From Quercus robur (taxonomy: Eukaryota; Streptophyta; Magnoliopsida; Fagales; Fagaceae), in contig NC_065537.1 of assembly GCF_932294415.1 (NCBI RefSeq), positions 1,426,001-1,490,000 on the forward strand: a DNA stretch of 64,000 nt, written 5' to 3'. The notes under the pieces are model-generated. The model was not told the DNA's origin, did not search any database, and saw only the letters and a program-made list of their open reading frames with translations. The stretch's first letter is position 1, and the number at the start of each line of letters is the position of its first letter. Of this stretch, positions 2,893 through 24,934 are shown one piece after another. The translations under genes and the position numbers were made by a program.

Positions 2893-3486
2893 AACTCGAT
2901 TTTCTGGAAATCGAGTTATATGCAATCAAATTTTCAGCACAAGGGCTTGCACATAAACCGACTGTCCGTAAATCGAGTTATGTGTAGCACAAATAACAAG
3001 AATCCAGTTAATGGTGGAACGGCTTTCTCATAACTCGATGTTGCAGACAACGAGTTAATTTCAAATAACTCGATTATACATAACTCGAGTTATTTTCCTG
3101 GGCCCCCAGATATTTGGACTGGTCCAGATGCAGTCCAAGACGAATCGAAGTTTAAAGGTAGGCCTGCCACAATACTCGATTCTACTTGAATCGAGTTCTG
3201 TGCAGTGGACACTCACAAGAATTCAAATTCCTCGAGATGTGGAAAATCCAGTTACGTTGTACACATGCACCCACCCAGCCCATATATTTGGACTGGTCCA
3301 GATGCAGTCCAAGAGGAATCCAACTGTATATGGCTACCTCGCACAAAACCGAACTCCGGTAAAATCGAGTTATTTGCAGTAGAATATCTCAAGAATGCAA
3401 TTTCTGTGTGTAATGGCTTGCATATAAATTGATACATCATAAAGCGAGTTATTTGCAGAGTTACTCAATTTTGTAGAACTTGAGTT
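2893..3486. repeat. Dyad cluster 1 (AACTCGAT-N9-ATCGAGTT, about nine sites)
   Basis: About nine 25-bp inverted repeats, half-site AACTCGAT and reverse complement, with a 9-bp spacer of varying sequence. First site 2893-2917, last 3462-3486; some half-sites have decayed by one or two bases. Two copies of a second dyad, TTGGACTG-N9-CAGTCCAA, occur near 3114 and 3289, in the same orientation and context (after CAGCCCAGATAT-like sequence) as in the 154-bp repeats of cluster 2. The cluster sits about 0.8 kb upstream of the minus-strand gene at 961-2094. Confidence 0.85.
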
Positions 3487-4104
3487 ATTTTCACTGGTCT
3501 CCCTTAATCTTCCTGTTAGGTGTAATCATTTCTCAACATTAATTGACAATAACAAGTAGTCTTCTAAGTTGTTCCAAAAATCATGCGGGGCCTTTTTATT
3601 TAATATTTTTTATTTACTTCTTTTTTAGTGGTATGATTCTCAATAAAATGTAAGTTTCACAGTTTTCATGAAAATTTCTTTTTCATGAAAATTTCTTGAG
3701 AAAATGGATTTAGAAATAATCCAGACTCATGATTCCTTATGACAATGATAGAATTACTTGCATTTCTACCGTGTGGATGACCCACTTTCATAAGCAGTTA
3801 ATGGCAGCAGTTATGATAGGAGTCTGACAGATGTTGTTTGCAGGTTTGTTTAGTTCAAAGATGATGTTTTTCTATAAATTTTGGTGTTTTGAATGCTTCC
3901 GTGTATCCTAAATCTCTCTCCTTTTTTATTTTCCCCTTATATTCATCCTTGCGTTTGCAACACTACTGTTCTTTTGAAGGACTACTGCAACAAAAAAAAA
4001 AAAATATCATCCATTTTGTGTAGATTTGATTTCAATATAATTTAATTATCTTATCCAGAAGCATGAGTATGGTCTCTCGAATTTTAATGTTTTTGTACAT
4101 GCAG

Positions 4105-4201
4105 GGAGCTTGGCATTGGAATAGTTCCATACAGTCCTCTTGTTCGTGGTTTTTTAGCTGGCAAAGGAGCCGTGGAAAATTTGGCTGCAAATAGCGTATT
4201 G
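4105..4201 (+). pseudogene. Isolated aldo-keto reductase exon (captured fragment)
   Basis: A 97-bp exon-like block reads [16 protein letters not shown]...[15 protein letters not shown], matching the region after the substrate-binding part of plant aldo-keto reductases (auxin-induced/perakine-reductase type, where the motif is ELGIGIVAYSPLGRGF). It is preceded by a polypyrimidine-like stretch and TGCAG, and followed by TTG|GTACAT, so it kept authentic splice borders and some intron. No other exon of the gene is visible on either side, so it cannot encode an enzyme. It lies between dyad clusters 1 and 2, antisense to the B3 gene. I interpret it as transduplicated by a transposon. Confidence 0.8.
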
Positions 4202-4928
4202 GTACATATTTCACCAGTATTTTGTGTTATTCATTTGTAAGATACAAAGATTTTTCAGGAAACAATGATATTTTTCTTTGAGCAACGATTCATCAAGTTC
4301 ATTGAATAAAACAGTACATATTTTAGTCCTTGCAGTTTACAAGAAGTTCCAACTTCATCTATAACATTTGAAAAATTGCTACCAAGTGAAATTTTGAAAA
4401 TTTAGCTATCAAGCTTTTCAATTTGCCACATTATATTGATTGACACAATTGATGGATTAACTTCTCACTTATTTTTTAAACATCTAAATTTGCAAACATC
4501 AAAAATAATGACTAAAAATTATTGCACATGGTGTTATTGTATTAAAGTGTTACAATATATACAAAACATACAACAATGTCATCTGAAAAGAACAAAATCC
4601 TATAGCAATAACAATGTTGACCCCCCTAAAATAAAATCCAAGAGTCGCCATTCAATGTAATATAATTGAATGACATGCAAAAAAGGCCAAAATCCAAACA
4701 AAAGCACAGAAAAAAAATACAGCATCACATTCATTTTAAAATACATATGAAAGTTCATCATAGTAATTAAAAATTTCCCAAGAGTGAAACTCTAAACATC
4801 ACAAAAGTACCCAATCAATAAAGTTGCAAACTGGGATGAACAAAATAGGGATGAATAGTAAAGTTGCAAAGTAAACACACTCTAAACATCACATAATATT
4901 ATCATCACTTTGCATCCACCCTAACCAC

Positions 4929-7014
4929 TTAGTCTTGGCACTTGAAAATGTGGACGTTTAACACAACACCGTCCCTCATAATCAGCTCAAATACGCAAAC
5001 ATCTCCTACTTACAAACTATTTTCCCTCACAAACGCAGACCAACCAGCTGATACGACACATGATGAACCCCCACTTCGTTCATAAAGGTATAGCTTCACA
5101 GGCCATAATCGGTCCATAATCTGGAGCTTGACAGGGAGTATAAGTGCTTTGGTGTAGTCCTTGGTAAACCCGTCTCTTGGTAAGTAGTTGATAATGTGTT
5201 GGGGTAAACTCTATACAAGGAACAATAATAGATATTTAACAAATATATTCCAGCAACAAGTATCTAATTGATCTACATCTTTTCACCTAAAAACACAAAT
5301 AAGAAAAAATCATTGCGAACAAAATGTCCAGCCACAAGTATCTAGTGTGACAATCTTTCTAATTGATCTATGAAAAATGATAGTTAATGGGAGTTGCATT
5401 TCTAAATTACAAAAATATTCCATTTTAGTGAAGCTAAAAGCTTACCGCACGATCCTTGCCATTAACGTAGGATGGACGCATGATAACAGTGAAAAGGGGA
5501 TTTTCTGATTTAAAAGCATTGGCTATAACAAGATTTTTAGCTACACCACCGCCTTTCTTAGGATGGGCTGATCCTGAAAGAAGTTGAAAATACGAAGTCA
5601 TGCACATAAAATTAATAGAGCAGAAGCTAAACAAATCAACCAGTTGCTTACAAAAGTGTAACATTCAAACCCGAACCCTCTCCCCTATAAAAGTGTTTGA
5701 TGATTTCAACAGAGCTGTCATCACTCTCATCATCTTCGATCCTATGAACTTGGAGTTCGTCGTCTAAAGTATAGTCTATTTCTGTTGCAGTGGCATCAAA
5801 TATGAGTACATGAAACTGTGAATTTCCTTCATATTTGAAAACCAGCAAGTGCCCCACGGCTACACCATGAGAGCTTGCAAATTCGGACCAACCATTTTGA
5901 AACCAAACCCCCCCAGCATTTTGTGTCAACTTGACTTTCCATTTTCTACCATTTGGAATAGTGAGAAAGGCCATATCTGACAGGTCCACTCCAAATTTCT
6001 GCACGAACTTATCTGGAATCCGCTGTAAAAAGAATCTCCATAACATAAATGCAGGCTAGGGAAATAAACACATGCAATCAATCCTTATACACAATGCTAG
6101 AAAATAAAAGTTTGAATGATGGTAGAATACTTCTTAGTTACAGCCCCCCACCCCCACACAAAAAAGAAAAGAAAATCAAACAAAATAAAATGTAATCCTG
6201 CAACATTGACGTTATATTTAATAGCTATGACAGTAACAAATCTTATGAATTTTGAAACCAAATTATACAACCTAATCTTATAACCAAAATAACCATCAAC
6301 AGCTGTCAACATTTTACATTTCTCTGTTGTTGTTGAAATGTAAAAAATTTTGGGGAAATGTTGTATTTTGATAATGTGTCTGTGATTTGGTTTTGGGGTG
6401 TTGGGGAAACATTGAAGATGACCCACTTTTGTTTATGGGCAGGATTTGGATTTAGACGTAGTAATTTTTGCCACTTAGCCACTTCATAAGTTTGTGAACT
6501 CTAAAAAACAAATGATAAAAAGAGTGAACGATTTCTGTATCCTAGTTTGATCCCAGGACACAGTTTCACAGTTTAAATTGAGTTATACATCTGTGGTGAC
6601 CCTATAAGCCCTATCACATTTTCAAAAAAATGCCATCTGCTCTTGCTCTATATTTATTTTTCCTCAATCTCTACCATGCGCCCCTGTTTCATTTTTTGTT
6701 CATATAAAAGTGTACGATGCAAAAGTACTCTGTTATGTGACTGTGTTCTTCTTAAAGTGTAACCTACGTATTGCAAAATGAAAGTTTTTCTAACTACATG
6801 TAACAAATGTACATTTTTTCAAGAATCACAAATAAAGAAGATGAAGTGTTCGAAGTGTATATTAGCATATGATTTTCAGAGGAATCTAGTTTATAAATTT
6901 GAGCATACTTACAAGCTTTCCTTCCTGAACAGCATTCGGCAGAATAATCTTGAAAAAGTGTGGGGACCGATCAGCAGGACCATCGTCGTTGTCTCTCCGC
7001 CATTGAGAAGCCAT
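4929..7014 (-). CDS. B3-domain (REM/VRN1-type) DNA-binding protein, second B3 domain with internal stop
   Basis: Four exons inferred. Exon 1 is 7014-6913 (MASQWRRDND...SPHFFKIILPNAVQEGKL, donor GTAAGT). Exon 2 runs from 6022 to about 5670 and completes the first B3 domain (RIPDKFVQKFG, GVWFQNGWSEF, GHLLVFKYEG) and an acidic linker (DDESDDSS). Exon 3 is 5573-5446 (NLVIANAFKSENPLFTVIMRPSYVNGKDRA). Exon 4 is 5210-4929 and completes a second B3 domain (LPRDGFTKDYTK, SAGWSAFVREN, GDVCVFELI). Plant B3 proteins bind DNA in the nucleus. Exon 4 has an in-frame TAA at 5012-5010, just before VGDVCVFE, so translation would stop inside the second B3 domain; the residues after it are still readable to TAA at 4931. 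The exon 2 donor is uncertain: the obvious GTAAGC gives the wrong phase, while a GG|GT a few codons earlier fits. The start codon lies only about 90 bp from dyad cluster 2. Probably a recently inactivated or truncated gene. Confidence 0.72.
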
Positions 7015-7105
7015 TGTTCTGGTTCTCCAAACTTTCGCTGAGAAGAAGTTGAACAGTTGTTGCTTTGTACGTTTGAGAACTAAATAGTGGGTTGGTCATA
7101 CACAT

Positions 7106-8301
7106 AACCCGATTATTACGAAATCGAGTTATGTGTACTGGGACTAAAAGGAGTCCATGCTGTGCGCAGTGTATCTCAGAGGAATCCATGTTGTGTGTGG
7201 TGGTTTGGAAGTCCATTTGAAGTAACTCGATATCCTGAACATCAGGTTAAAGTAGAATTACTCGATACTCAAGAAATCGAGTTACATGCGAATAACTCGC
7301 TTATAGAGAAATCGAGTTAAGATAATTGGACTGGGCCCGAGGCAGTCCAAGAGGAATCTAAGTGTAGACAATGGTGATCAACGTATCTCGATTCTATAGA
7401 TATCGAGTTCCTTTCAACATAACTTGGTAACAACTAAATCGAGTTAAGTTGACTGGGCTTCCTGACCCAGCCCAGATAATTGGACTGGTCCAGAGGCAGT
7501 CCAAGAGGAATCTAAGTGTAGACAATGGTGATCAACGTATCTCGATTCTATAGCAATCGAGTTCCTTTCAACATAACTCGGTAACCACTAAATCGAGTTA
7601 AGTTTACTGGGCTTCCTGACCCAGCCCAGATAATTGGACTGGTCCAGAGGCAGTCCAAGAGGAATCTAAGTGTAGACAATGGTGATCAACGTATCTCGAT
7701 TCTATAGAAATCGAGTTCCTTTCAACATAACTCGGTAACCACTAAATCGAGTTAAGTTTACTGGGCTTCCTGACCCAGCCCAGATAATTGGACTGGTCCA
7801 GAGGCAGTCCAAGAGGAATCTAAGTGTAGACAATGGTCTTCAACGTATCTCGATGCTAAAGATATCGAGTTTTTTCCAACATAACTCGGTAATAACTTAA
7901 TCGAGTTAAGTTGACTGGCTTCCCGACCCAGCCCAGATATTTGGACTGGTCCAGAGGCAGTCCAAGAGGAATCTAAGTGTGCACAATGGTCTTCAACGTA
8001 TCTCGATGCTAAAGATATCGAGTTTTTTCCAACATAACTCGGTAATAACTTAATCGAGTTAAGTTGACTGGCTTCCCGACCTAGCCCAGCTATTTGGAGT
8101 GGTCCAGATACAGTCCAAGAGGAATCTAGCTGTGTAGAGTGCTCTCCAACGTAACTCGGTACCCTATAAATCGAGATATGTTGAACGTAACTCGGATATA
8201 GAGAAATCGAGTAACCCAGATACTTGACAATTGAGAATGGATACAGTCGAAGGGGATTGAAAATGGACTGCAACGTAACTCGTTAGCTGGAAAATCGAGT
8301 T
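7106..8301. repeat. Dyad cluster 2, including the 154-bp tandem array
   Basis: Roughly eighteen 25-bp dyads of the AACTCGAT-N9-ATCGAGTT type between 7106 and 8301. The left part (7106-7320) has dispersed single sites, the middle is a tandem array, and the right end (about 8150-8301) again has dispersed sites. Examples with exact 8-9-8 spacing are 7106-7130, 7539-7563, 7575-7599 and 8277-8301. The cluster lies between the B3 gene start (7014) and the 3' side of the MULE transposase gene (9052). Confidence 0.9.
7321..8217. repeat. 154-bp tandem repeat, about six copies, each carrying four 25-bp dyads
   Basis: Unit starts at about 7321, 7475, 7629, 7783, 7936 and 8089, giving periods of 154, 154, 154, 153 and 153 bp; a degraded seventh copy may begin near 8218. 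In the second unit the dyads are ACTGGGCT-N9-AGCCCAGA (7452-7476), TTGGACTG-N9-CAGTCCAA (7480-7504), ATCTCGAT-N9-ATCGAGTT (7539-7563) and AACTCGGT-N9-ATCGAGTT (7575-7599). All have the same 8-N9-8 layout although half-sites differ. The 7629 and 7783 copies are nearly identical, so amplification is fairly recent. No open frame across the array looks real. Confidence 0.92.
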
Positions 8302-9051
8302 TCATTTAGTATAACCTTTCTACTTGTAGTTTTGCTTGCGACTTGCACTGTTCACACCCATTCAGTATGGTGCTTATTCATAGTAAAAGTGGACCTGCTG
8401 ACAACCATGCTGTGAACAACAAGTCATCCATACAAATCATAACCAACCACATCCATCAGTAACATTCCCCCATTTGCATTACGCGAATAAAAAAATCATC
8501 CATATATACAAGCTTATTTGTAAGTAAAGAGCCTCTATGCATTTAAATCAGTTGATGTACAAAAATAAAAAGTTCCATTTATGCATTTTAAACATTCTTC
8601 ACAATTGTAAGTTGAAACTTGGACAGCATCCGCCAACAATGGTTTTAGGCAAACATGGAGTCATAGCATTTGAGTGACACCTTCTATTTGTTCTTTTCAG
8701 AAGTTGCCTCCTTTCTGAGGAGTAGCCAACACAGAAATTAGTATACAACCCATGGTAATTAATAAATTGAATTGACAAATATAGAAGAGCATTCAAGCTT
8801 GCCTACTTAAATGAGGAGCATCTACAGTTACACCTTGGCAACAATTACAAATCTGCAGCAAAACATATACAGTTAGGGAAATAGAGACCTCATGAATACT
8901 AGAATATGTACACCACAAACAATAAGATTGAAAGAATACTACAAATTACTGCCCACATCTTAATTATAACTCATATAATGTAATATCTAAACATGTAAAG
9001 AAGAATAACTTATGATACCCCCTTGTTACTATGATTTGTAATTGTTACCTG
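8302..9051. other. 3' flank of the MULE transposase gene, no gene recognised
   Basis: AT-rich sequence without recognisable coding motifs. It lies downstream of the minus-strand transposase, and probably contains its 3' untranslated region; a downstream intron or exon cannot be excluded. Confidence 0.4.
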
Positions 9052-11679
9052 CTACATAGCACCATGGCTTGTTGAAGCCACATTTCGAGTTGGACATGTA
9101 CGACGGTTATGACCCTCTTGGCGACACAACCCACACTTCAACTTTGGTCCATTCTCAATCCACAATGAGGTTGGCAACTCCCTATCCTCGTCATCCATCT
9201 CATTGCGGATTCTCGTGGACTTGGGCCGACCTTTTTCACGGATCAACCGCTGGTTTGGCATCACGGTTCTCCTTTCTGCTGGCTCCGGCCATTCTAACCT
9301 ATCTTTTAGTGGTTGGAATATAGGCTCATAGCTGTGATACTGTTCTTCAAGGCGGTAGAAATGATCCATATACTCAGTGGCATCATGGTTGTGTTTGGCA
9401 CAAACTGCTATCAAGTGGGAACAAGGGATCTTGTTTGCTTCCCATTTGCCGCACGTGCATGTCATGTCTATGAGGGAAACCCTATGGGTGTGATCTCCCC
9501 CATCAGTGTTCAACAATGAAGACTGTGTCTCCACTGTATATAACCGTTGTTGCGCACTCATCCTTCTAACAATATGGAGCTTCGCCTTCTCTTGATTTTC
9601 CTCGAACTTGTCATAGGCATATTTGCACCACACTTGCCCCTCTTCCAACTTCTCTAGGGTTTTGTTTCGACGTTCGTCAAAGTATGAGTTCACCTTGTAA
9701 AATGTAAACTTCACCATTGCAGTTATGGGCAAGCTACGTGCGCCCTTAAGTACCCCATTGAAGCACTCTGACAGGTTGGTTGTCATTGCCCCATATCGGT
9801 GCCCATGGTCATGTACAAGTGTCCACTTTTCTTGATTTACCTCCTTAAGATAGTCGTACGCAGCCGGGTTGACATTCTTGATGCAATCCATGGTGTTCTC
9901 AAACTTCCTAACTTGATTCGCAGTTGCTGCGTTCCATACCAAGTTCTTCAACGGCACACTATTGAAGTTAGTGTTAACATTGCTTACTAAATGGCGGAGG
10001 CAATACCGGTGATGGGTTAAGGGCGGTTGCAAGTAGCCCCTAGTGGTGTCATCGAAGCATGATTGTATCCCACGATGCCTGTCGGATATTATACACAAAT
10101 TGGTGCGGTCTGTAACATAGGTCAACAGGCATGCCAAGAACCATCCCCATGTCTCCGTGCTCTCGCTTTCGACAACGGCAAATGCGAGTGGATAAACCTC
10201 GTTGTTACCATCTGTTGCCATTGCTATCAACAGCTTTCCTTTGTACTTGCCATAAAGGTGCGTTGCATCTATGCTTATCACCGGCCTGCAATGCCTAAAC
10301 CCTCTAATACACGGACCGAAAGCCCAAAACGCGGAGTTGAATATACAAGTCCCCGGGACATTGGGGTCACACTTTAATGTGGTCACAGTATCCGGATCTG
10401 CATCAGACAATGCAGCTAGAAATCGTGGCAATTCTGCGTACGACTCGTCAAAATCCCAGTAAATACGTGCAACTGCCTTCTGTTTGGCTTTCCAAACCTT
10501 GTACATAGTTACATCATGCCCATGCCTTGCATGCAACATACTACGCAAGTCCCTTACCTTTTGGGTTAGGTCTTCCCGTACATACTTCTCAAGTGCAATG
10601 GAGATGAACTTTGAATCCATCATCCGCCCATCAGTTGGTAGCTGGAGGGATGAGCAACTATGGGGACCCTTACATGTACTGATAACCCACATCCCGTGCT
10701 TCTTGCTGCAATTGGCCCGAATTGACCACAGACATGCCTCATTCTTACATCGCACTACCAGCCTATTGGTGTCAGACTTGATGACCTTGTATTGCTTATT
10801 ATGCTCCACAGAGTAGAGGGTCAACACATATTGAACAGAGGCTTTATTCTTGAATAGCATCCCCCTTGCTGGGTGGTCATCTTTATGCCAACTTGTAAGA
10901 TGTCCTGTACCCAATGCAGGTGATGGGTCATTAATATTGTCCCATGTGTTTGATGTGAACCATTCTGGGATAGGAACTGTTGTAAGGCAATCCTCCTCGT
11001 TATTTTCGATCAGTGGTACATTTAAGACCTCCGCGTCGTCCACTGGTCCATCAGTATCAATGAACTCTTCATACACATCTCGGCTGGCATCAATATCAAT
11101 TCCCCCGTCCATATCAGCTTGGACATGCTCATATGTGTGAGTAGACCCTCCCACATCATGTGTATTGGTGGCGCCCACCACTTCGGTGTTGTCCAAATGA
11201 TCAACCGCACTACATGGTTGAGTATTGTAGGGGAAAGGCGTGGCATAGGCAAAGGGAGGATGCACGTCAACCGACAATGAGTGTGGCTCTTCCACCCCAC
11301 TGGCATGCTGTGAACTTGCACTACCATGGAACCCAACAGCCTCAACAGTTACATACAAGTCGGACGCTATGAACTGGGGGGTCCGCTTAATCACTGCCCA
11401 CATCATGTCCACGTCAGCATCGCAACCCAACGGATTTGAGTTGTAGACAACCTGAGTACTCACAAGTATCTGGGGGGCACGGTACACAATGGATATCTTA
11501 TGTGACTCCTTGTCCAACCGTAGAGCTTCCATTATCTTCCGGTGCATTTTTCTCAAGTGTGTTCCCCATTTCAACTCAATGAACTTCTGCTTCACTGACT
11601 CGCCTTTATAGGACAGCCCATGCAAGTCATGGAAATACTGTTCCCCATCATAGTAAACGTAGAAGCAGTGACGACCCAT
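9052..11679 (-). CDS. Mutator-like element (MULE) transposase, SWIM and zinc-knuckle type, intact frame
   Basis: An uninterrupted frame of 875 residues from ATG at 11679 (MGRHCFYVYYDGEQYF). Order of domains: N-terminal PB1-like MULE segment (about 1-115); acidic low-complexity linker (170-230); MuDR-type DNA-binding region around residues 270-345 (FKNKASVQYVLTLYSVEHNKQ); MULE DDE transposase core around 465-645, with candidate acidic residues in ISIDATH (Asp 471), IISDRH (Asp 533) and NLSECFNG (Glu 638); SWIM zinc finger CTCGKW...CSHL near 740-760; and a C-terminal CCHC knuckle CGLCRQEGHNRRTC. The family cuts and pastes DNA in the nucleus. Unlike the other MULE in this window it has no stop codons, so it may be functional. 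Dyad clusters lie on both sides (7106-8301 and 12968-13133). Confidence 0.92.
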   Translation of the reverse strand: MGRHCFYVYYDGEQYFHDLHGLSYKGESVKQKFIELKWGTHLRKMHRKIMEALRLDKESHKISIVYRAPQILVSTQVVYNSNPLGCDADVDMMWAVIKRTPQFIASDLYVTVEAVGFHGSASSQHASGVEEPHSLSVDVHPPFAYATPFPYNTQPCSAVDHLDNTEVVGATNTHDVGGSTHTYEHVQADMDGGIDIDASRDVYEEFIDTDGPVDDAEVLNVPLIENNEEDCLTTVPIPEWFTSNTWDNINDPSPALGTGHLTSWHKDDHPARGMLFKNKASVQYVLTLYSVEHNKQYKVIKSDTNRLVVRCKNEACLWSIRANCSKKHGMWVISTCKGPHSCSSLQLPTDGRMMDSKFISIALEKYVREDLTQKVRDLRSMLHARHGHDVTMYKVWKAKQKAVARIYWDFDESYAELPRFLAALSDADPDTVTTLKCDPNVPGTCIFNSAFWAFGPCIRGFRHCRPVISIDATHLYGKYKGKLLIAMATDGNNEVYPLAFAVVESESTETWGWFLACLLTYVTDRTNLCIISDRHRGIQSCFDDTTRGYLQPPLTHHRYCLRHLVSNVNTNFNSVPLKNLVWNAATANQVRKFENTMDCIKNVNPAAYDYLKEVNQEKWTLVHDHGHRYGAMTTNLSECFNGVLKGARSLPITAMVKFTFYKVNSYFDERRNKTLEKLEEGQVWCKYAYDKFEENQEKAKLHIVRRMSAQQRLYTVETQSSLLNTDGGDHTHRVSLIDMTCTCGKWEANKIPCSHLIAVCAKHNHDATEYMDHFYRLEEQYHSYEPIFQPLKDRLEWPEPAERRTVMPNQRLIREKGRPKSTRIRNEMDDEDRELPTSLWIENGPKLKCGLCRQEGHNRRTCPTRNVASTSHGAM

Positions 11680-11837
11680 GCCAGACCTGGATAAGGACAA
11701 TTAATTGTGGTTATCATGCAGAAGATAGGGGGTTATGTTAATGCAACAGTAATTAATCTTTTACAGATGCACTATGATGCTATCCTAATTATAGGTGTAC
11801 ACACTTGATTCGTTTGGACACAAACATTGGCCTTTTA

Positions 11838-12000
11838 GGGGAGACGTGCCACAACAAAGAATCAGGGTGTTTGTAATATCGCTTGGTAAGGATGCAATAT
11901 GGAGTAGGAAAATGCAAACATGGTCAGCAAAACTTGTTCACCTCGTAGGCTTTCTTTTTCAGAACCCACACAGTAAAGACTTTCAGAACTGAAAGAGCCA
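11838..12000. repeat. Diverged direct repeat, copy 1 (partner 12758-12927)
   Basis: About 165 bp sharing blocks such as GTGCCA-AACAAAGAA, AAGGATGCAATA, TTGTTCACCTC-TAGGCTTTC and TTTTTCAGA with 12758-12927 in the same orientation. It lies in the 5' flank of the MULE transposase gene; the microsatellite-rich stretch separates the copies. Possibly old LTR-like or duplicated promoter DNA; function unknown. Confidence 0.6.
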
Positions 12001-12214
12001 TACAATTTAAACCTCAGTATACAGTACACATCATTGTTAATATGTATGAATGATTGCATATGTCATCATATGAATTCACCGTACAATGTTTGTTTATATA
12101 TATGTTTATTTAGAATGATTATATACATATTTCCCAAAAGAATTCTCAAAAATAATTATTATATACATTACTATATAAAACTCGAGATATTTAGGAACAA
12201 TATGTATACAGTGT

Positions 12215-12410
12215 CACTATCACACACACACACACACACACATATAAGATTATTCTCACATAAGTCATAAGAGCACACAATAATTAATCGTTTCTTGGAC
12301 AATTTTTTCCAGGATTTTCAATGCACTAACAGTTTTTGCAATTCCTAACAAAAATGTTTCAAAAAATTGGTGCCCTAAGCACATACATTATATGTAAACA
12401 TACCTATACA

Positions 12411-12442
<32 letters not shown>

Positions 12443-12514
12443 CATGTGATCATATATGGGTAGGTAGCTTTGTTTATATTTACATATATTTGCATATACA
12501 TACATACATACATG

Positions 12515-12555
<41 letters not shown>

Positions 12556-12690
12556 ATGTGTGTGTATATATATATACATATATTTGGGAATGCCACATAT
12601 ACATCTTATGATATGGGTAAGTACGTTTGTCTATATATACATATATCTATACATACATACATTTATGTATATATATACACACACATAATG
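12215..12690. repeat. Compound microsatellites (AC/TG, AT, ATAC)
   Basis: Runs of (CA)n near 12221-12242, (TG)n and (TA)n at 12411-12440, (ATAC)n near 12496-12512, (TG)n at 12534-12555 and (ACAT)n near 12645-12665. Open frames here read only Tyr-Ile-Tyr and His-Thr repeats and are artefacts of the dinucleotide repeats. Confidence 0.9.
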
Positions 12691-12757
12691 TCAGAATAAG
12701 ACAGTTGTGTAAGTCAATCTATTTATAAGTAGTTATGTAAGTGAATATATACCTGTC

Positions 12758-15017: not shown

Positions 15018-15421
15018 AAAGAAAATATGTTTGATGATCACCAAACAAACATGTAAGAAGAAAATTTTACAGCATCGTTAGTTTGCAAAATCTACAATTA
15101 TTTTCATTCCCACATGATTTCAACACATTGCAGATAAGGATATATATATATATATATATATATAAAGCACAATGAAGGCAAATAAATGGAAAAAATACCT
15201 GTATGCCCAACAAAAGTATGTGTACATTTGCTTCCTCTCCAAAGTTTTAAAGTTGTATCACTTGAACCTAAAATCGTGGTAGCATAAAAATGAACCCCAT
15301 AAGTTCATAGTGAAAGACATAGTTGGATCTATGCATTCCAATCTGATGTAACCAGTTCCAACTACCAACAAAATCTAAAACAATATCTAGCAGAACAGTC
15401 ATCTACTGAATCATATTATAC

Positions 15422-15525
15422 CGGTAACAAGCTCGCCTGAAGGCAGCTTTATGAGTGCTTGGATTGCTGCCTTATGAGCCTCCCAGGATTCTGAAGGTTG
15501 GCCACTTCTCCAACGTCTTAATGTG
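15422..15525 (-). pseudogene. PLAA-like WD40 protein exon (captured fragment)
   Basis: A 104-bp block with acceptor CACAG at its 5' side and donor G|GTATAA at its 3' side. It reads CTLRRWRSGQPSESWEAHKA followed by AIQALIKLPSGELVTG, which is the WD40 propeller segment of plant phospholipase A2-activating protein (PLAA/Doa1/Ufd3 family, ubiquitin-binding). No neighbouring PLAA exon is visible. It lies between two ABCC exons on the same strand, making a chimeric fragment set. Confidence 0.82.
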
Positions 15526-15737
15526 CTGTGGTGAAGGAGACATTAGATACTAACCGAAAATTATTGAGAAAAATGCATATACCTTTGTAAGCATAGATAA
15601 TAATTCAAACCCAAAAAACGGCAATACACAAACAATAAAAGTAACATTCAAACAGTATGCAAAGTTTTCATTAATGCCTCCATCATTTCATTAAAGCAAA
15701 TGATGGACAAGATTTGATTCATTGGCCAATGACACAC

Positions 15738-15771
<34 letters not shown>

Positions 15772-16188
15772 CTGAAAATCATAAAATAAGAAGGCTAATT
15801 GATGAAAAAATCAATAATCAATTAAATGTTTCTCATTGGGTTCCCAATTTGCTACCAAAATGAAAAGGTAATATATACAATGATAAATAACAATTACAAA
15901 CCCCAAGAAGCGAAAGGAACAAAACATGCACACATAACTAAGATTTTTGCCGTTTTCAGCTTTGGGTAAGTTATATTGTGAGCTGCTCTAAAACAATGCT
16001 AGAAAAAAATATAAATTCTATTCTCCAAAGTTCCTACTAACGAACTTGTAATCAAATGTACACAGATCTAATCATTCTAGAGAGGAGGGGATTTAAAGGA
16101 GATTAAAAATAATAAAATGGGAAGGAGGATGTACCAATCTAGGAATTGTAGGGAAGGCGAATCAGAAAATTAGGAGAGAGACACATAC

Positions 16189-16271
16189 CTAGCCAAGCAT
16201 TGTAGAGACTCGGATAAATGATTTGCTACAAAGGAGTTGGTTCTGCCATTGATCTGCATAAACTTCGTCAT
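16189..16271 (-). pseudogene. ABCC (MRP-type) transporter exon, end of second transmembrane domain
   Basis: Minus-strand translation MTKFMQINGRTNSFVANHLS-ESL resembles the plant ABCC sequence LMRINGTTKSLVANHLAES that precedes AGAMTIRAFEEE. The block ends in AG|GTATGTG, a strong donor. In the parental gene this lies upstream of the nucleotide-binding domain represented at 14475-14621, consistent with both coming from one donor locus. Confidence 0.65.
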
Positions 16272-16928
16272 CAAACTCTTTTACAGAAAGTATCAAATTA
16301 CTTCTTCTTGCTTATCAACAATACCACACATTTGTTTCTCACAAAAATAACAAAAATAAAAAAACAAATTACTCTCTTACAACCCACTTTACTGTAGCTA
16401 ACAACATACAAAAACACAAGAAAGTTTGGCTTCAAATGAATACCAATCCAGACATTTGTCAAATTGCAATCAAAACTCCAAGTGCAGAAAAACTTCCTAA
16501 TACATCAATAAATACAATACGCCTTATGGGTTTTCTCCAAAATATCAATTTCTTGACAACAAACACATTGACAGCGAGTATTCTCCCCAAGCAATGATCC
16601 AGAAATAGATGCACAGCCACCAAGATTCTCCCCAATTAGTAGAACATTTTGCATGCTTATTCCAGTCACCTATACACATGAAGAATAAGCACACAAGGAC
16701 AATCCAGCTCAATGGCCTTTTCGTGTCCACCATTGCAGTTAGGTCTAAAAAAAAAAAATACGACTTTAGAAGAAAAGTGAAACGTAACTATGCAGTCACC
16801 TATAGGCAGGAGGTATAAGCATACACTAAGGCATTTAATGATCTTTTCTTTTCCGCCCATATGCCCTGACAGGTCTAATCTTACCTGTTTCATCAGACAC
16901 AACAGCATAATTAAATTAACATAATCAA
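16272..16928. other. Spacer downstream of the PMD gene, with a diverged local duplication
   Basis: No gene seen. Two stretches, about 16667-16747 and 16795-16877, share an ordered set of words (GTCACCTATA, ATAAGCA, AGGTCTAA) and look like an old tandem duplication of about 128 bp period. Confidence 0.35.
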
Positions 16929-19900
16929 TCAAATGCACAGTACAAGTAGCTCAAGAAGATGGGAAGTGTAGACGAAGTACATACCATCACCGGTCCCGCA
17001 ATCGGGAGCATGCGCACGCGGGCGTCGCGATCTCCGCAAAGCCTCCACCGGCTCAATGTCCTCAGCCGGTATCTGCTCAATCTGTACAGCCTCTCCGTGG
17101 GCGGTTTGAGATGGAGCTGACATGGTGGGGTCCACATGCACTAGAGGTGGGGTGGGCATGCCTGGTGTGGGGACAAATATGCATCCACCATCATGGGCAG
17201 ATCCACTGAAAACTGGGGGCGACATACGAGGAGGGCCCTCAAAGTCCGTGCTAGCACCATGGGATGTAGTGTGGGCTGGAACAGTGCCCTGATGATCGAC
17301 GCTATGGGATGGCCCAGCACCATCGCCAGGCGTGCATCGCGGTGTCTTGCCGTCGTCATCAGACAGTACCCAATCAGTGCCAAGCCATGCCTCTTCTACA
17401 CCCTCCTCATTCCCTTCCTCGTAGATGGGAGCCGACTCGGTCGTACAGCTGCGACCAGCTTGACCACTTCCACGATGTCCACCCCTACGAGACCCACCAC
17501 GTTGCCCGCCACGAACTGGGGCCTGTGTATCAATGTCAACTGCTTCTGCAAGCGCATTCGCCAATTTAAGTCGGCCTAGCTCCTCCACAAGCTCTAGTGT
17601 AAATGTAAGGTCAATGTGCATGTCAGAACCTTCATCGCACCTCGGTATAGACCTAATCATCATCCGAACCTACAAAACAAGGGCGTCATAAAAGCAAGAA
17701 CGCAAGTATGATGCAAAACTTGGATAAATCTGTTCCAAAATCAAAAGAAAAAGTAGCAAACATAGCTAATGAAATCCTTATATTACTTATAATTATGAAG
17801 CATCTTTAAAAAGACAGTGTATAAAAATAGGGGTTGGCCCCCCCTGTGCAAAAATTTATAGTTCCAACCCAACACTCAGGAATTTTCAGTTTCCTGTTAT
17901 GTTTATCGCTATGCAATCTAAACATTGCGATAATACTTCTAAAAAACACGTATAGTTGGTTGTACATAAGTTCAATCTTAGCATAAGTGAAAATATCAGA
18001 ATTTCACTTCTGTATCTAGGCTTCACGAGATTTACAACTCCATTAATATCACATTGCAATCAGGACACATATTTTGAAGTTATTATTTCCTAACGTACAC
18101 GCCCAAATCAAATGAATTGAAAATATCAAACGCAAGCTTCAAGTTTCAATTAAGGGAAGTACCAAAAACTTAGAACATATATCATACTTGAATCTAGTAT
18201 AAATGCACATCTCCTTGCTGCATACTTGCAAGATTTTAAATGACCTTTAAGCTGTTGGGAATTGCATTCTACCAACAGTTTAGTAAGGGACTTCCCAATC
18301 CTAGAGGTAATATCTATCAAGGAATATGTAATACATTAATCAGTCCTGGAGGAAAGGCTATCTAAACTATCATGAAATGTGAATTTATCACTACTACACA
18401 GAGTTGCACCGTCCATTTTAAAGTACAAGCCAACCAAAAACAAAAAAAAAAATAAACAAAAAATAAAATAAAATACAATAAAACCCAACCCAACCTACCC
18501 TTTTTAAAAGTTGAATGTAATTATATGAACAAAGGTGTGGTCATCATTAGTCATTGCCCATTAACCATTCCTCATGCAAACAAATTGGATCAAGACAAAT
18601 TCAGTTTGTTATGAACAACTTAAATCATGCAGTATTTTGACTTTAAAACATAATGACATGTCATGCAGTATTTTTTGACTTTAAAACAAAATGACAGAGA
18701 AACTTATAGAGATGTAACAACGATAATTATTGTGGACTTTTGCATGCATGATAAAGCTGCTGAGGATATTTAATCCAACAATGGTTTCATCCATAAAATA
18801 GGAATTGTTGCCTCACCATGAGTTCCCAATACGCAGACTCTGGTGTTATGTACCGCCTTGTGTGGCGATTGTACCACATCATGTACTCAACGAGATACGT
18901 ATCATCATCGTCTAGGAGATCGGACCCGCGAACTACATTCACTCGGTTGGCCCATTGCCGAATAAAGGGATCATGTTCTACCTCCCAGTTCTTCTCCCAT
19001 TTACCCTGAAGGGATATCTTGTGAAGGGTAGTCGACGTATCCACGACACTTGGAACTGGTTGCTTCATCCCAAACTGACGGAGGACTCGCTCAGGATGAT
19101 GCCACTCCACTATCCAAAAGAATATCAACGGCACCTCGGCCCTCCAAATATGCTGCCCAGCAGTGCAATACGCAGGTAGGGAGCCTAGCGTATGCGTGTA
19201 CGGCTCCCATACAATCTGCATAAGTAGATTATGTTTGTGATAGTGAGACATCATACTAATTTAACATTATGTTTGTGATATGTAATATGCAAAGCATGGA
19301 ATTTCTAGCTTCTAGTCGTACACAAAATCTTCAGGGATTATTGGGCAGAAACTAAAAGAACAACAAAATTGACCTGCAAAAAATATTAAAAGATCTAGGT
19401 TGTTCATGTCCACCATTTTCAGCCCCATGTTCATATGCTGGACAGGGTTCAAAGCTAACTGACACCATCAAATACTAGGGTTTTCAATCTGAACCAAACT
19501 TAGAAGAGGGTACTAGAGCATCCTTATGGCTGTAAGATGAATCCAAGTTGATGATTTCGCAAAATCTTTTTATCGTAATAGAAATATTGTGCTACATTAA
19601 TTGCATTAGTCATTAACAATGTTTCAATGAATGAGAACAAAATGACTATTATAAGGTCTACTGAAGACATTGCATTTCAAGTACCACTTTATATTGCAAG
19701 AAATGGAAGCTATGTAAATTATTACATGGTATAATCCTCATCAAATACTGTTATTATATTTCTATGTAAATATATATTTCTTATAAATTTTAGTGTTGGA
19801 AATTACGTAAGCCTTTTAGTTATCTCAAACTAATCATGTCAATGTCTAAAATTACATTCCTCTTGAAGAATATGGTGAGCAGCATATTTTGCACGCTTCT

Positions 19901-22900
19901 AAAATTATATGAATAAAGTACTCGTTAATAATCCATAGCTTTTAATAATTTTAGGACTATTAAGGCAGCTAAAGTGGGGACAACTTAAGGAGTTGCATGC
20001 TGCAATTAAATTGTGCTCTCCAACTTTGGTGCAAGGAGCACGAACTAACTTTTCATTTAGGTCAACAACAAGAGGTAATGTGTCAAGCGTCTTTATGTTT
20101 TCTCATATATCACTGATTAACAATTATTTGTTTCTTTAAACTTAGGCCATTGTTTTCCAAGAAGACAATCGAGGCTGTGCATATTCAAAATATACCACTT
20201 GAATACGTAAATCGAAGTCAAACAGTATTCTACTAGACTGTAAAAATATAACCTTCAATTCAGCAAAGGTAATTTATAACGTACAATGTAACAATGTTTT
20301 TTGCATCACAATAACAATGTTTGTAATCCTGGATACCCCTATGTTAGAAGAAGAAATACTAAATTGTCTACTTATTAGGCAGAGCAATAACTATGGTTTT
20401 AAGCTCATAACATTTTATTAATTAATTACAAGTGATTTCACAAGCTTAATTACAAACCGTACAAGCTTAAATTTTATTTGTTTAATCAAATTTGTAGCAT
20501 ATATTGAGACTATATGCAAAAACAACCGACTAAAGTAGAGCGTGATAGTAATCTGGTGCAATTGTACATATGAAACTTCTAGCCAAGAGAGTTCGATCGT
20601 ACCTATGAAACTTATATCTATGCCCAAATGGAGCTCACACACTAAAACCACCTGCAGCACCAGTGACACCAATGAATTGTAAAGAGCTTAGATTCACATT
20701 GACTACCTATGAAAACACCATCAACTAGAACATCCCAAACGGATGTTTAGATAACATAAAAGTTTATATTAACCTTAGATGGTCACTTAATACTAAATAT
20801 TGCTATGTTCTGTCACAGGGGTAGTGAAATGCATAAACTCCAAACATTAGTAAGTTTTTGAAGGCAAAGCAACAATTGAGACTATCTTCGGTGCTCACTC
20901 TGGCATCCTAAACAACCCCAAATCTCACAAAGGGTTTAACCTATACCCTGGACTCTCGAGTTCCTAGTGGGGGGGCACTAATGGCTTTGTATTTTGGAAA
21001 TTTCACAGTGTGGACCCAAGCAATGACAACCATCCAGCATTGGACAAGGACAAGCTATGGCAATGGCTTAGCCTATGGTCACTCTATGACATTCAAGGCA
21101 GAGTAACTCCATCCTTTAGTTTGCTTAATTTCAAATTTCAATGAAAGCCAGAGAAGTGATCATGTGTTTTACGGGCCAATGATCAATAATGTCATCATTC
21201 CCTCTGTTTCTGTACTTAGGCCAAAAATGCAAATTGGGGTTATATTTTTGCTCTCATGTCATGATTACACAATAATTAGATAAAATTTTCGTAGTTTAAC
21301 ATTTGCAGCTTTCCCAACGTTCTAAATTTAAAGAATTTTATCATTTTATGAGATTTAACAGCCAACTATATTACAACAGTGAAGAGAAGCTCTAACTCAG
21401 CAAATTTAATTCAACGAAAATCTGGAATATAATTGTGGTAATATCTAAGTCAACCACCAAAACTATAGCGAATCCAAAAGGTGTGAAATATTAATAAGCT
21501 TCAACAGTTCTAAAAAAAATTTCTATTTTAAAGCTTTAATATTGAAGTATAACAACTATCAAAGATTCAAACTCTCTCTAAAAGAATTATGAGCACAAGT
21601 CTGGGCTAACCTGTTGAGCAAGACTCCAAAACGCATGTAAAGAAGCAGAAAGTGCAAAAACAACGAAGAAGACAGTGAAGCAGAATTCACGCAAGGATTA
21701 GGGAAAGAAAAAAATTTGGACCATTTCTCGATTTATGCGTGTCATCCTTGCGCAGGGGCCATGTGTTTTGAAAATATCATTTGTATTCTAATATGCCTTG
21801 ATTCCCTTGTTCTGAAAAGACCCATATTTGTCAAGTTTATAGTAGGAAATTTGTTGTTTAGAATTTAATTGATATCTTCTGCGTTTACAATCATTCGCCT
21901 TATATAAAGTCTTAAGAAATATTGTTTTGAAATTTTTTAGTTCATTTTCATAGCAGGCTAAAAGTTCTATTTTCTCATGTTAAATAGGTTGAAACGGTGT
22001 ATAATGACATAATCAGAAAATGAACACAAACTTTTGATTCAGTTAGTAGCTGGAAAGAATTTAAAGATGTCATCGTCAGTTTTGAAGATGCATCATTAAA
22101 ATCAAATGAATTACTTGAGCACACAAATACAACCAAAGACAAATCTGATTATCTTTGGTATACTATTAGGTAAATTCATTTCTCATTGAATTATAACCAA
22201 TTACATAATCCAATATGTGCGTCTTCTCTTCATTGCATCAGCTTAATGACATTTGTAACAATTGGTGGAGTTTTTGTTTTTGGTTGCAACACAAGTTTGA
22301 ACTCACTGTCTTGCACTAAACCAAGACTTCATGCTCAATCTTTTGCGCATGTTGCACATGCTTCAAACATCTTGGAAACGGGACAATTTATTCTGTGTTT
22401 TTTTTTTTTTTCTCGGTGTAAATCACAAACGTTTCCGTACATAATGAAGAATATAGCCAAATTCTACTTTATATATATATGACTAAATTTATATATAACC
22501 CATTGATTTAACCCAACTTAACCTGAGTCATGTGAGTTGGGTTGCATTGGAAAAAACCCTTCAATCCAACCCAATTTGGAAAAAACCCTTTGATTTAACA
22601 TTCAAGAATTTTTTACTTTTGTTTTACTTTATGTAAGGACGAGCAAGTATTCATGCAGGTGCTACAAATGGAAGTTCTAATGTGAAGTACTTCACGATGG
22701 ACATTCCAATTGAGTTAAATGATGGGATGGAAATCCAAGTATCAAACAAAATGATTGGATGGTATTATGAAATCAACTCATTCCTACAACAATCCAAGAA
22801 TTCAAAATAAAATAAAAATTGAGGGAAACGAAAATAAAAGCATGTGCGGTGCATTTGAGGGAAACGTGCTCGGCCCGTAGTCATAAGAATTGAGGGAAAC

Positions 22901-24151
22901 GTGGTCATAAGAATTCAAACTAAATTAACCGAATACCTGCTTGGCCCGTACTGTAGCCAGTGACGCCCGGTACGTAGCAAGGACGTGTGTGGCATGCTCT
23001 GCGGTGCATTTTGGCCCGCTCCACCTACCAAACATGAGGTGTCGACAAATGCTCATTACTGAACCTTACATTTAACAAACTTTGCTTTTATATTTCACAT
23101 CCATATACTAAGCATTGATAAGTTTCTTTCGTTTGTTAGTTTGGCATATTTTTAATTATATGAAAGAGACAAATAACGAGAACTCAATGAACGTACCTAA
23201 TGGCAAGGGGCCCTGAGTGCACTGGCGGTAGAGGCGGCCTCACAACAGGGCATAATTGTGGGAACCTTGAATAGGCCCATAGCTGCACCAACAAGAGTGC
23301 TCCTCCAATCTGCATCGCATCCTTCTTCGATGCACCACAAAGTTGCCTATACAGCCAGGCCAATGCTGCACTACCCCAGCTATACCATCTCGCATTGCTG
23401 ACTGGGTTGAGCAACTGCAGAGGCAGCAGTGAGACCCGGTCCGCAGACCTGTCCATGAACAAGAGGGCCCCCATCCGTACAAGTAGGTGGTAGCGGGCAT
23501 GTTGCTGCACGACTTCGTCAGCAGCGTCCACAACTAAGGGATCGGCAAACTGTGCATCAAGCCAGGTGTATCTTATCCTCGCCCCAGCAAGGGTAGACTT
23601 GTTTGAGTTTGGTATCGGGGGTGGAGGTTTATGGCCCAACAACTGTTCGCACAGCTCACTCCATTTGTAGTCTGTCTTCCCAGTGACAGGCAACCCATCC
23701 ACCGGAAGCCCCAGCATCACCTCCATATCTTGCAAGGTGATACCCATTTCTCTATGGGGTAAGTGGAATGTGTGCGTCTCCGGACGCCACCGCTCAACCA
23801 ACGCCGTGATCAAGGCGTGGTCGACCTCCATATCAGGAACCTTGAATAAACCAGTCAACCCTGCTGCATCTATGTGTTGCATGATACGTGGATCTAACCC
23901 ACCCTGTGGCAATACACATTTACGGCGTCGAACCTTTATCATGCCAGGCGCCTCCTGCACACGGACGAGTATTGTGTTAGGAGATTAAACACGAGGTAAT
24001 TATAAAACAAACATGTATTAATAATACTACTACATACCTCGTCAGCGGCGCACCTCCAAAGTGGACTTGACCGATGATTCGGCTGCTGGGCCAACTGGGT
24101 ATCCACATTGGGTCCAGGCCGCACTCTATCTAGTGCCTGCATATCTGACAT
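16929..24151 (-). CDS. Plant mobile domain (PMD) protein, MAIN/MAIL1-like family, five coding exons
   Basis: Exons in transcription order: 24151-24038, 23954-23197, 23024-22937, 19215-18817 and 17669-16929. Junctions are GT/AG and the phases agree, giving 699 residues. Exon 2 starts [13 protein letters not shown] and carries the typical motifs [20 protein letters not shown] and [10 protein letters not shown]; the short exon 3 supplies [20 protein letters not shown]; exon 4 has [27 protein letters not shown] (in two parts); exon 5 is an RGG-like, Ser/Pro-rich tail ending [17 protein letters not shown]. The PMD family is shared by Arabidopsis MAIN/MAIL1 (silencing and development) and by MULE and gypsy elements. 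A donor GTATGT lies at 16984, so a further terminal exon is possible. A 5' untranslated exon with donor at about 24597 is likely. Dyad cluster 4 lies about 650 bp upstream. Intron 3 (3.7 kb) contains a beta-galactosidase pseudogene in antisense. Confidence 0.85.
19955..22733 (+). pseudogene. Beta-galactosidase (GH35) exon set, antisense within PMD intron 3
   Basis: At least four plus-strand blocks with splice borders match plant beta-galactosidases. 19955-20074 reads [20 protein letters not shown]; 20146-20268 reads [11 protein letters not shown] then, after frame damage, [18 protein letters not shown]; 21988-22169 reads [20 protein letters not shown] then [18 protein letters not shown]; about 22635-22733 reads [20 protein letters not shown] then ELNDGM. 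The parental order is kept, but a TGA follows IIRK in the third block and the second block is frameshifted. Catalytic N-terminal exons are absent. The enzyme removes beta-galactosyl residues in the cell wall; this copy cannot. It is either captured DNA or an insertion into the PMD intron. Confidence 0.85.
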
Positions 24152-24797
24152 GGCAGCAAATACATTGTTAGCAATTTTCTAACAAGTAAACCACATTTAA
24201 TATAAAATAAAAGCATACATTCAGTAAGACATTATATTTTGAGCACAAGATTTTCAACATCACTTCTTAAATAAATAAGAACTTGCCATAAAAAAAATTA
24301 TTTCAGAACTATTTAAATCACTTCTTAAAGCTTCGGATAATTATTAATTAACTATTTTTGAAAATATAAGTTATAACACCACTCGATTTGCCAAAACCCC
24401 TCATCAAAACCCCAAGCACATTTAAACTCATTAATGAGAAAATCATCATTGCAGCATATAAAAGACAACAAAATTCTCATCTTCATTAGTAAATTTACTA
24501 CTTCCTTAAGTTTCAACAAAATAATCAAAATCCCACACAAAACGCAACCTAACATTAACCAACATCAGAAAATATTTCAGAGGGAGAGGACCGTACCTGT
24601 AATCAGCGGCGGCGGGAACCAACGACAATTGATGGAGACTCGAGGAAGAGTGGGGAAGCCTGATCGCAGAGCGAGAGAGACAGAGTGTGGAGAGAGAGTG
24701 ATGGCAGAGAGCGAGGGAAAGAGAGTGTACAGGGAGAGCGAGTGACTGAATAGCGTTGTGAGACGTTAGGGTCCTATTGATTCAAACCGCTGAAAAT

Positions 24798-24934
24798 AAC
24801 TCGATTTCCAGTTTCCCGAGTTATGACCGTCTACACAAACATTTTTTTATTGGGAAAAATTCGAAGGGTCAGACTAACTCGACTATACAAATATCGAGTT
24901 ATTCATTAAAACTCGATTTCTCTATTGTCGAGTT
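24798..24934. repeat. Dyad cluster 4, three sites upstream of the PMD gene
   Basis: Three 25-bp dyads with 9-bp spacer: AACTCGAT..CCCGAGTT at 24798-24822, AACTCGAC..ATCGAGTT near 24878, and AACTCGAT..GTCGAGTT at 24910-24934. Half-site positions match the other clusters. It lies just outside the likely 5' untranslated exon of the PMD gene and marks the right limit of dyad-bearing DNA in the window. Confidence 0.85.

Follow-up and report, generated by a model that had tools for sequence, protein, structure and literature searches.

The VANC genes of Arabidopsis VANDAL transposons are of the DUF1985 type and encode anti-silencing proteins, which cause sequence-specific loss of methylation. Their evolution is reportedly treated by Sasaki et al. 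2022 (EMBO J). VANDALs are of the Mutator-like (MULE) type, and the available portions of two studies describe their short motifs, 8-9-mers (YAGTATTAY; AGTTGTCC/AC), as clustered in noncoding regions, partly in tandem repeats that grow and shrink, and as differing between related families (PMC5735166, PMC10398659); DUF1985 is mentioned once in the available text of the former. In maize MuDR, the transposase MURA binds the terminal inverted repeats (TIRs), through a site described in the accessible part of PMC3310237 as a motif of about 32 bp, and these TIRs serve as both binding sites and promoters. MURA is also reported to cause TIR hypomethylation (PMC10398659, in part). In En/Spm, a member of the CACTA superfamily, the element-encoded helper TNPA binds subterminal repeats (12-bp motif in En-1) and regulates the element, and helper and motif vary between families (PMC2613891, in part). 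Finally, transposon silencing in Arabidopsis involves PMD proteins (excerpts of PMC7156037 and PMC9899485).

We analyzed a 64,000-nucleotide stretch of the Quercus robur genome (the window), in which a first-pass annotation had described about 34 copies of a dyad with a near-constant 9-bp spacer, in four clusters near several transposon genes. The dyads mark a 31.7-kb MULE (31,692 bp) with at least seven predicted genes. Its left end, which begins GGCC..., lies 6.7 kb ahead of the window (C4:1419332, window coordinate -6668), and a second giant copy occupies C1:13230018-13272173, with matching blocks 92.5-98.8% identical to the window copy. The parts of the element within the window are as follows.

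1..25023, minus strand (that of the transposase): giant MULE, part in the window, delimited by TIR match, second copy and target duplications
961..2130, minus strand: Transposase_32 (T32) gene, a 389-aa open frame (Pfam PF20167, E 2.4e-26)
5648..6055, minus strand: exon for a B3 DNA-binding domain, B3-1 (Pfam PF02362, E 1.7e-17)
9052..11700, minus strand: MULE transposase, an 882-aa open frame (Pfam DBD_Tnp_Mut, MULE and SWIM; PF10551 E 1.5e-19)
13227..13571, plus strand: RNase H1 N-terminal-domain (RNase H1-N) gene, divergent from the transposase (Pfam PF01693, E 1.2e-15)
18787..19260, minus strand: PMD exon, C-terminal part (Pfam PF10536, E 1.4e-19)
23184..23984, minus strand: PMD exon, N-terminal part (Pfam PF10536, E 2.2e-49)
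24875..25023, minus strand: right TIR (blastn), 83% identical to the left TIR over 145 bp, with dyads at 24876 and 24910
25024..25033, no strand: right target-site duplication AATCAAGTAA, 9/10 identical to the left copy AGTCAAGTAA

Target duplications, read by eye, agreed at 9/10 bases in the window copy, 8/9 in the C1 copy and 9/9 in both L133 and a giant of a third lineage; the figures were 10/10 for each of L171 and L172 and 9/10 for L173. Three coiled-coil-like genes (CC1, CC2 and CC3) also belong to the element. An aldo/keto-reductase-like stretch had no match in Pfam. Of 51 MULE matches, T32, PMD and CC1 each lie beside 48 and RNase H1-N beside 49. There are 28 full-length transposase matches at 95% identity or more, window included, 22 of them without a stop, and B3-1 occurs at 36 loci, counting the window, at 96-100% over residues 4-134 or more; one of them carries a stop.

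The element has the features of the Mutator superfamily: a MULE transposase domain, a 9-11-bp target-site duplication and long TIRs (100-500 bp in the superfamily, here about 145 bp at 83%). It resembles VANDALs in carrying motif arrays of varying unit number in noncoding regions. However, the motif is a 25-bp dyad rather than an 8-9-mer, neither PMC5735166 nor PMC10398659 uses the word "palindrome" in its main text, and no VANC-type Pfam domain was found in the scanned oak ORFs, with no DUF1985 match among 7 window ORFs, 3 L157 ORFs and 43 T32 relatives. VANDALs, moreover, have degenerate TIRs. These data therefore do not support placing the element among the VANDALs. Maize MuDR and other TIR-MULEs share with the oak element a MULE transposase, long TIRs with 9-11-bp target duplications and non-autonomous relatives with common ends (PMC3310237, in part), and the oak TIRs may likewise be binding sites and promoters. 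Unlike the MURA site within the TIR, however, the oak dyad forms clusters at internal promoters as well as lying at the ends, and the oak element is 31.7 kb long with PMD, T32, RNase H1-N, B3 and coiled-coil-like genes. Likeness to En/Spm lies in the repeated subterminal motif and, putatively, in an element-encoded regulatory helper such as TNPA that binds it, but not in the CACTA hallmarks: the oak left end and 9-10-bp duplication differ from CACTA ends and from the 3-bp duplication of a soybean relative, and the En/Spm transposase is of another family (PMC2613891, in part).

With AACTCGATN9ATCGAGTT as the pattern, the window contains 30 matches at up to 3 mismatches, all within the four clusters, against an expectation of 0.20; none of 100 shuffles reached 30. 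Allowing up to 4 mismatches raises the count in the clusters to 34 dyads, as the first-pass annotation had it, the site at 2908 overlapping that at 2893.

2893..3486, no strand: dyad cluster 1, about 800 bp upstream of the T32 gene, with two TTGGACTG-N9-CAGTCCAA also inside
7106..8301, no strand: dyad cluster 2, upstream of the B3 gene, containing the 154-bp array
7320..8128, no strand: 154-bp tandem repeat, 5.3 units, with ten dyads at up to 3 mismatches
12968..13133, no strand: dyad cluster 3, in the interval separating the MULE gene from the divergent RNase H1-N gene
24798..24934, no strand: dyad cluster 4, just inside the right end of the element

A fifth cluster of five dyads (-6579 to -6344) lies at the left end, ahead of the window, so that dyads stand just inside both ends as well as upstream of several genes. 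The close link to genes holds, but a single MULE carries all the clusters, with one of the four in the window at its end. The earlier report of no dyads after 25 kb also fits, because the transposon stops at 25023. Half-site pairs (up to 1 mismatch per half-site, gaps of -8 to 40) were spaced by 9 in 24 of 28 cases, the remainder being -6 in two, 26 in one and 35 in one, which agrees with the near-constant spacer. Ten of the 30 window dyads are not independent, because they sit in the single 154-bp tandem array.

Genome-wide, the exact AACTCGAT-N-ATCGAGTT dyad occurs 1614 times with a spacer of 9 (control 3), compared with 43 times at spacers 0-8 (control 7) and 109 times at 10-30 (control 55). 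The check on spacer length had been set beforehand, and 1614 against 152 passes it. TACTCG-N13-CGAGTA likewise occurs 1626 times (control 27), with 51 occurrences of the same halves at N4-12 (control 265; range covered N4-13). We judged association with MULE, PMD or transposon-protein genes from sampled loci, drawn from the 50 sites listed of the 1614: 18 of 22 adjoin the same TIR sequence, 16 of them outside this giant, and two are the ends of the C1 giant. The expected association therefore holds only insofar as short elements share the giant's ends; most exact dyads sampled elsewhere sat at element ends with none of these genes in view. Viral and prokaryote contigs, with the palindrome counted on both strands, yielded 15 and at least 117 stretches, respectively, with one site in each listed stretch; we took these single sites, in organisms with nothing in common, as chance. 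By title, no plant MULE paper was among the listed matches of a full-text search for either 8-mer, and in the available text of PMC6914339, on a plant factor and transposons, the 8-mers are confined to an oligonucleotide for a guide RNA. The DOWN motif linked to PMD mutants in Arabidopsis, CATGCAGTTT (PMC9899485, in part), differs from the dyad and was dropped as a candidate.

A second dyad, TTGGACTG-N9-CAGTCCAA, is interleaved with the main one in clusters 1 and 2 and occurs at 277 places genome-wide (control 0). Among the matches listed (50 of 277), every place is in or beside giant copies, as judged against the MULE, T32 and PMD match lists. Its spacer sequence is largely conserved too, and since it is part of the array unit, we rejected its equal geometry as independent evidence for the 9-base spacing. 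In other, 99%-identical copies, the listed exact TTGGACTG units at the array number from 2 to 13.

Such array growth could mean that the dyads are functionless by-products of TIR duplication and tandem expansion. Between the window and C1 copies, changes fell on 18/180 spacer, 8/200 core and 7/120 remaining arm positions, compared with 379/14505 other bases, so the core is no better conserved than other DNA (p=0.26), as decay would have it. Yet spacer length holds at 9 while spacer sequence changes, at some 2.5-7.5 times the rate of other DNA at the same loci. In three pairs from another subfamily, the spacer changed at 8/63, 9/63 and 15/63 positions while the core changed at 0/70 in each (0/70 versus 15/63, p=5e-6); outer and inner arm positions changed too in two of the pairs (5/42 each). 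Dyads are also present where flanks no longer align, and we consider decaying duplicates a very unlikely account. Each half-site contains a CpG, and CpG retention is alike in dyads (31/36) and outside (264/311; p=1).

The dyad might instead act as a hairpin or cruciform, the stem-loop itself being the signal as RNA or single-stranded DNA. A fast-changing spacer would suit an exposed loop, and some sites fold well (-8.5 kcal/mol, z -6.25). In short-element sites, complementarity is in excess at mirrored positions 1, 8, 9 and 11 and the spacers are partly symmetric, and one dyad changed symmetrically at position 8 (L160 1277 versus L162). An earlier, less clean set of 53 giant-locus sites had excess complementarity at positions 5, 6 and 8; a pure half-site model does not need the excess in either of these sets. 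Among 50 collapsed cluster sites of giants, however, only position 6 of 12 showed an excess and the outermost bases were unpaired in 26, and eight of ten picked sites folded into an outer stem of only 5-6 bp (-2.4 to -5.0 kcal/mol). Because mirrored bases mostly do not covary, the data favor a dimeric protein, as first proposed, and a hairpin appears quite unlikely.

In a subfamily sharing 67% transposase identity, dyads still occupy the equivalent positions, although its promoter (L160) does not align with that of the window. In one copy, five stretches selected for gene position rather than for dyads held 7 (L160), 18 (L165), 11 (L166), 0 (L167) and 7 (L168) dyads, with 0-2 in each of 8 Markov shuffles of 74 kb. 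There was no convincing dyad in L167, in L157 outside its end cluster, or in the window between 13133 and 24798; therefore, not every gene has dyads nearby. By eye, a TATA-like box follows closely downstream of the final cluster dyad in L160 and L163. The core ACTCG-N13-CGAGT and the spacing are kept, while outer bases vary between lineages: position 1 is T in 4/40 half-sites of one element lineage versus 36/70 of another (p=1e-5).

Short half-sites are used by plant B3 and other factors. The element might thus have adopted sites of a dimeric oak transcription factor with 5-6-bp half-sites, host signals driving its genes and the copies at the ends being incidental; the TATA-like boxes would suit this. 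But 18 of the 22 sampled exact sites adjoin TIR sequence, and one factor would not predict outer bases that differ between lineages in one genome, which makes host-factor sites unlikely.

We therefore favor, with a probability of roughly 0.6, self-recognition: the dyads would be sites of a putative dimeric protein encoded by the giant MULE family, either the transposase or a TnpA/VANC-like helper, serving both the ends and gene activation. The thousands of tag copies probably exist so that a protein can recognize the elements and their short derivatives. At the ends of both, the putative reader would help in marking the termini or assembling them for transposition. Acting at the clusters that lie upstream of T32, B3, MULE and RNase H1-N, it would jointly activate the element's genes, perhaps by counteracting methylation. 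The transposase itself is the leading single candidate, by analogy, because MURA binds Mutator TIRs and reportedly causes their hypomethylation. A helper (T32, a coiled-coil-like protein or B3) is the next candidate. T32 has a basic N-terminus in alignment and a C-terminal helix predicted in a low-confidence model; since structure models of T32 and CC1 are of low quality (mean pLDDT 52.5 and 61) and a PDB search with CC1 gave no match at E<=0.001, fold singles out no reader. The case for B3-1 as a conserved reader is weakened: it was not matched in L160, L165 or L166, and in L167 only at E 5; L168, a copy read in part, has only a B3-like remnant with a stop, and B3-like frames without stops occur at other places. 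More tentatively, half-sites and spacing may carry the code while the spacer is diversified, such that an element-encoded dimer reading ACTCG-N13-CGAGT would desilence and mobilize giants along with short elements, the rapid change of the spacer would let copies escape homology-based small-RNA silencing, and lineages would use AACTCGAT, WACTCGMT and TACTCGAG as dialects of one geometry.

PMD and T32 are carried alongside a transposase by a single mobile element, which also bears a precise genome-wide cis-code. If a helper binds the dyad, an activation or anti-silencing system distinct from VANC exists in plants. The fixed-length, fast-changing spacer needs explaining in any case, whether by mutation where DNA is protein-bound or looped, by conversion between copies or by selection for diversity. 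Oak supplies over a thousand exact sites at which to study spacer change.

The first-pass annotation had claimed about 34 clustered copies of a 25-bp dyad, two half-sites around a constant 9-bp spacer. A pattern search of the window recovered 30 dyads with at most three mismatches, compared with 0.2 expected, all in the same four clusters (2893-3486, 7106-8301, 12968-13133 and 24798-24934); 10 of the 30 belong to a 154-bp tandem array. When gaps of -8 to 40 were tested, 24 of 28 half-site pairs in the window stood exactly 9 bp apart, in agreement with the constant spacer. In the wider set of ten clusters described below, close gaps between neighbouring dyads ranged from 4 to 11 (33 cases), so the inner spacing alone is fixed. 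We also scanned the 785.7-Mb assembly, using the reversed pattern as a control. Exact AACTCGAT-N9-ATCGAGTT occurred 1614 times (control, 3), while the same half-sites gave 43 places at spacers 0-8 combined (control, 7) and 109 at spacers 10-30 combined (control, 55), and the two ACTCG cores therefore stand 13 apart in almost every exact instance of this first form. The form with T outside, TACTCG-N13-CGAGTA, was found 1626 times (control, 27) and at N4-12 51 times (control, 265), so shorter spacers are no competitor here either.

Window positions 24875-25019 match, at 83%, a reversed stretch 6.5 kb before the window (in locus L157). The resulting element copy spans 31,692 bp, from -6668 to 25023, with target duplications AGTCAAGTAA/AATCAAGTAA. 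A second giant copy (C1:13230018-13272173; duplications CATATGTAA/CACATGTAA) is interrupted by a copia-like insertion, and its blocks are 92.5-98.8% identical to the window copy in a comparison that covers all but 4 kb of the C1 copy. By its transposase, terminal inverted repeats (TIRs) and target duplications, the giant is a Mutator-like element (MULE); by its TIRs it is not a VANDAL. The copia inserted in the C1 giant is a relative (~70% DNA identity) of the region at window 58472-61795 (+), a Copia-type polyprotein with a 1107-aa open frame. Elsewhere, a 1.46-kb palindrome outside the giant (window 27142-28602; main arm blocks 93-96% complementary) is probably a foldback or MITE-type element. 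Window 38738-40540 (-) is a second MULE transposase region, with MULE and SWIM domains in 38738-39964 and a frame at 39965-40540 that looks like its N-terminal part.

Genes predicted in the giant are three coiled-coil-like genes (CC1-CC3), a second B3-like stretch that contains a stop, Transposase_32 (T32), the B3 exon B3-1, the MULE transposase, RNase H1-N and PMD. The coiled-coil-like proteins, apparently paralogous and also present in L168, lie in L157 as follows:

4230-4712 (+), small coiled-coil-like protein
5013-5504 (-), small coiled-coil-like protein
8364-8981 (-), small coiled-coil-like protein

A Pfam scan of CC1-CC3 in L157 gave nothing above the cut-off. Pfam likewise gave no match for a 30-residue frame at window 4106-4195 (+), which to us resembles an aldo/keto reductase exon that the element has captured. 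The MULE transposase search yielded 51 scored matches among 1721 candidates, and T32, PMD and CC1 each lay on the expected side and strand of 48 of them and RNase H1-N of 49. Twenty-eight matches were full-length with at least 95% identity, and 22 of these contained no stop, indicating that the family moved recently; B3-1 was found at 36 places in the genome at 96-100%. Eight MULE matches represent another subfamily, with 67% transposase identity. The candidate dyad readers seen in both subfamilies are MULE, T32, PMD, RNase H1-N and CC1-3, of which CC1 is the most conserved, at 93-94% in the majority of main copies. Among the 120 of 186 matches listed for CC1, all named relatives come from Fagaceae (Quercus suber, Lithocarpus litseifolius and Castanea dentata). 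The coiled-coil-like genes share 87-98% DNA identity across subfamilies whose transposases share 67%, and this left-end block may possibly have been exchanged between them.

In the giant, each TIR contains dyads, and further sites stand upstream of the T32 and B3-1 genes and in the interval that separates MULE from RNase H1-N. We examined 22 exact-dyad loci, a non-random sample taken from the first places listed on C1; L142-L144 are one giant copy and L137 and L138 resemble tandem copies. Outer TIR sequence, with the dyad removed, aligned beside a dyad in 18 of the 22, compared with 1 of 22 in a reversed-sequence control. Two of the 18, L142 and L144, represent the C1 giant's ends, and the other 16 lie elsewhere, 9 of them with TIR sequence on both sides. 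L143 is the inner promoter of the C1 giant, and no outer TIR sequence aligned beside the dyad in L147, L149 or L152. The short element L133, a few hundred bases long, carries its dyads in mirror order and has a perfect 9-bp duplication. Repeated CCCTATAGTGGCGTTTT-like units lie between the dyads of L133 and three further short elements (L171, L172 and L173). Another giant copy, at C1:36810763-36812635, has 13 exact TTGGACTG-N9-CAGTCCAA units in 154-bp steps, the longest run among the copies listed.

In one copy of the 67% subfamily, 7 dyads lie in the interval from MULE to RNase H1-N (L160), 18 upstream of T32 (L165), 11 further on (L166) and 7 close to the left end (L168); L167 holds none. 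Apart from the RNase H1-N gene, L160 had no blastn match to the window promoter slice, and the single match of its sister L162 was weak, spanned 61 bases and fell outside the dyads (E 0.003). A forced alignment of the left-end dyad stretches of the two subfamilies, which adjoin the coiled-coil-like genes, gave 33-70% identity per 100 bases; the TIR matched over 52 bases at 77%. Two copies at ~82% (L163 and L164) have kept their dyads, and here the promoters remain alignable with that of the window. Outer bases differ by lineage: T occupies position 1 in 4 of 40 main-family half-sites versus 36 of 70 in the 67% subfamily (p=1e-5), and A occupies position 7 in 33 of 40 versus 37 of 70 (p=0.002). 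A third lineage includes a giant of ~23.4 kb on C1 (MULE C-terminus 60% identical, PMD 58%) that carries TACTCGAG-N9-CTCGAGTA close to either end and has a perfect 9-bp duplication. The same tag occurs in three short elements, whose duplications agree at 9-10 of 10 bases. The TACTCGAG and CTCGAGTA arms occur in 45 of 50 TACTCG-N13-CGAGTA places among the matches listed.

Base requirements were derived from 83 sites in ten clusters, 50 after near-copies were collapsed. In a separate count for the giant, left end included, collapsing reduced 32 sites that had no more than one core mismatch to 20. In the 50 sites, the information content was 1.5-1.7 bits at each of positions 2-6 (ACTCG), 0.9 bits at position 1, 0.4-0.65 bits at positions 7-11 and nil at the centre, and complementarity of mirrored bases was at chance level in 11 of 12 positions, position 6 excepted. 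In a first, less clean set that included chance sites, complementarity was in excess at positions 5, 6 and 8; in 37 short-element sites it was so at 1, 8, 9 and 11. Among the dyads shown in the between-copy comparisons, none had an internal gap. Across 20 matching dyads of the window and C1 copies, differences affected 18 of 180 spacer positions, 8 of 200 in the core, 7 of 120 in the rest of the arms and 379 of 14505 in other DNA (spacer versus other, a ratio of 3.8, p=1.9e-6; spacer versus core, p=0.025; core versus other, p=0.26). Three copies from the 67% subfamily, compared pairwise over 7 dyads, differed at 8, 9 and 15 of 63 spacer positions, at 0 of 70 core positions each time, at 0, 5 and 5 of 42 remaining arm positions and at 7, 16 and 17 of 276 bases of neighbouring noncoding DNA, with 1.7-4.1% in the rest of the locus; spacer change was 4.4-7.5 times that of the whole locus and 2.5-5 times that of the neighbours. 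Within the window array, 40 of 180 spacer, 4 of 200 core and 145 of 1030 remaining positions differed, the last count being inflated by a register shift. As spacers outpace their surroundings, relaxed constraint alone is insufficient; the fast change could stem from mutation where the DNA is looped or bound by protein, from conversion by other copies or from selection that favours diversity.

A dimeric DNA-binding protein as predicted reader, one of the two readings offered in the first-pass annotation, fits the symmetry of the half-sites, their strict inner spacing, the outer bases that differ by lineage and the scant covariation of the stem. Our literature searches, which covered open-licence papers, listed no description of the dyad or the giant element. 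MURA and TNPA each serve both transposition and expression of their own element, and the positions of the dyads at ends and promoters would fit such a factor or a VANC-like anti-silencing factor. We infer that the giant may work like a MURA, TnpA or VANC system.
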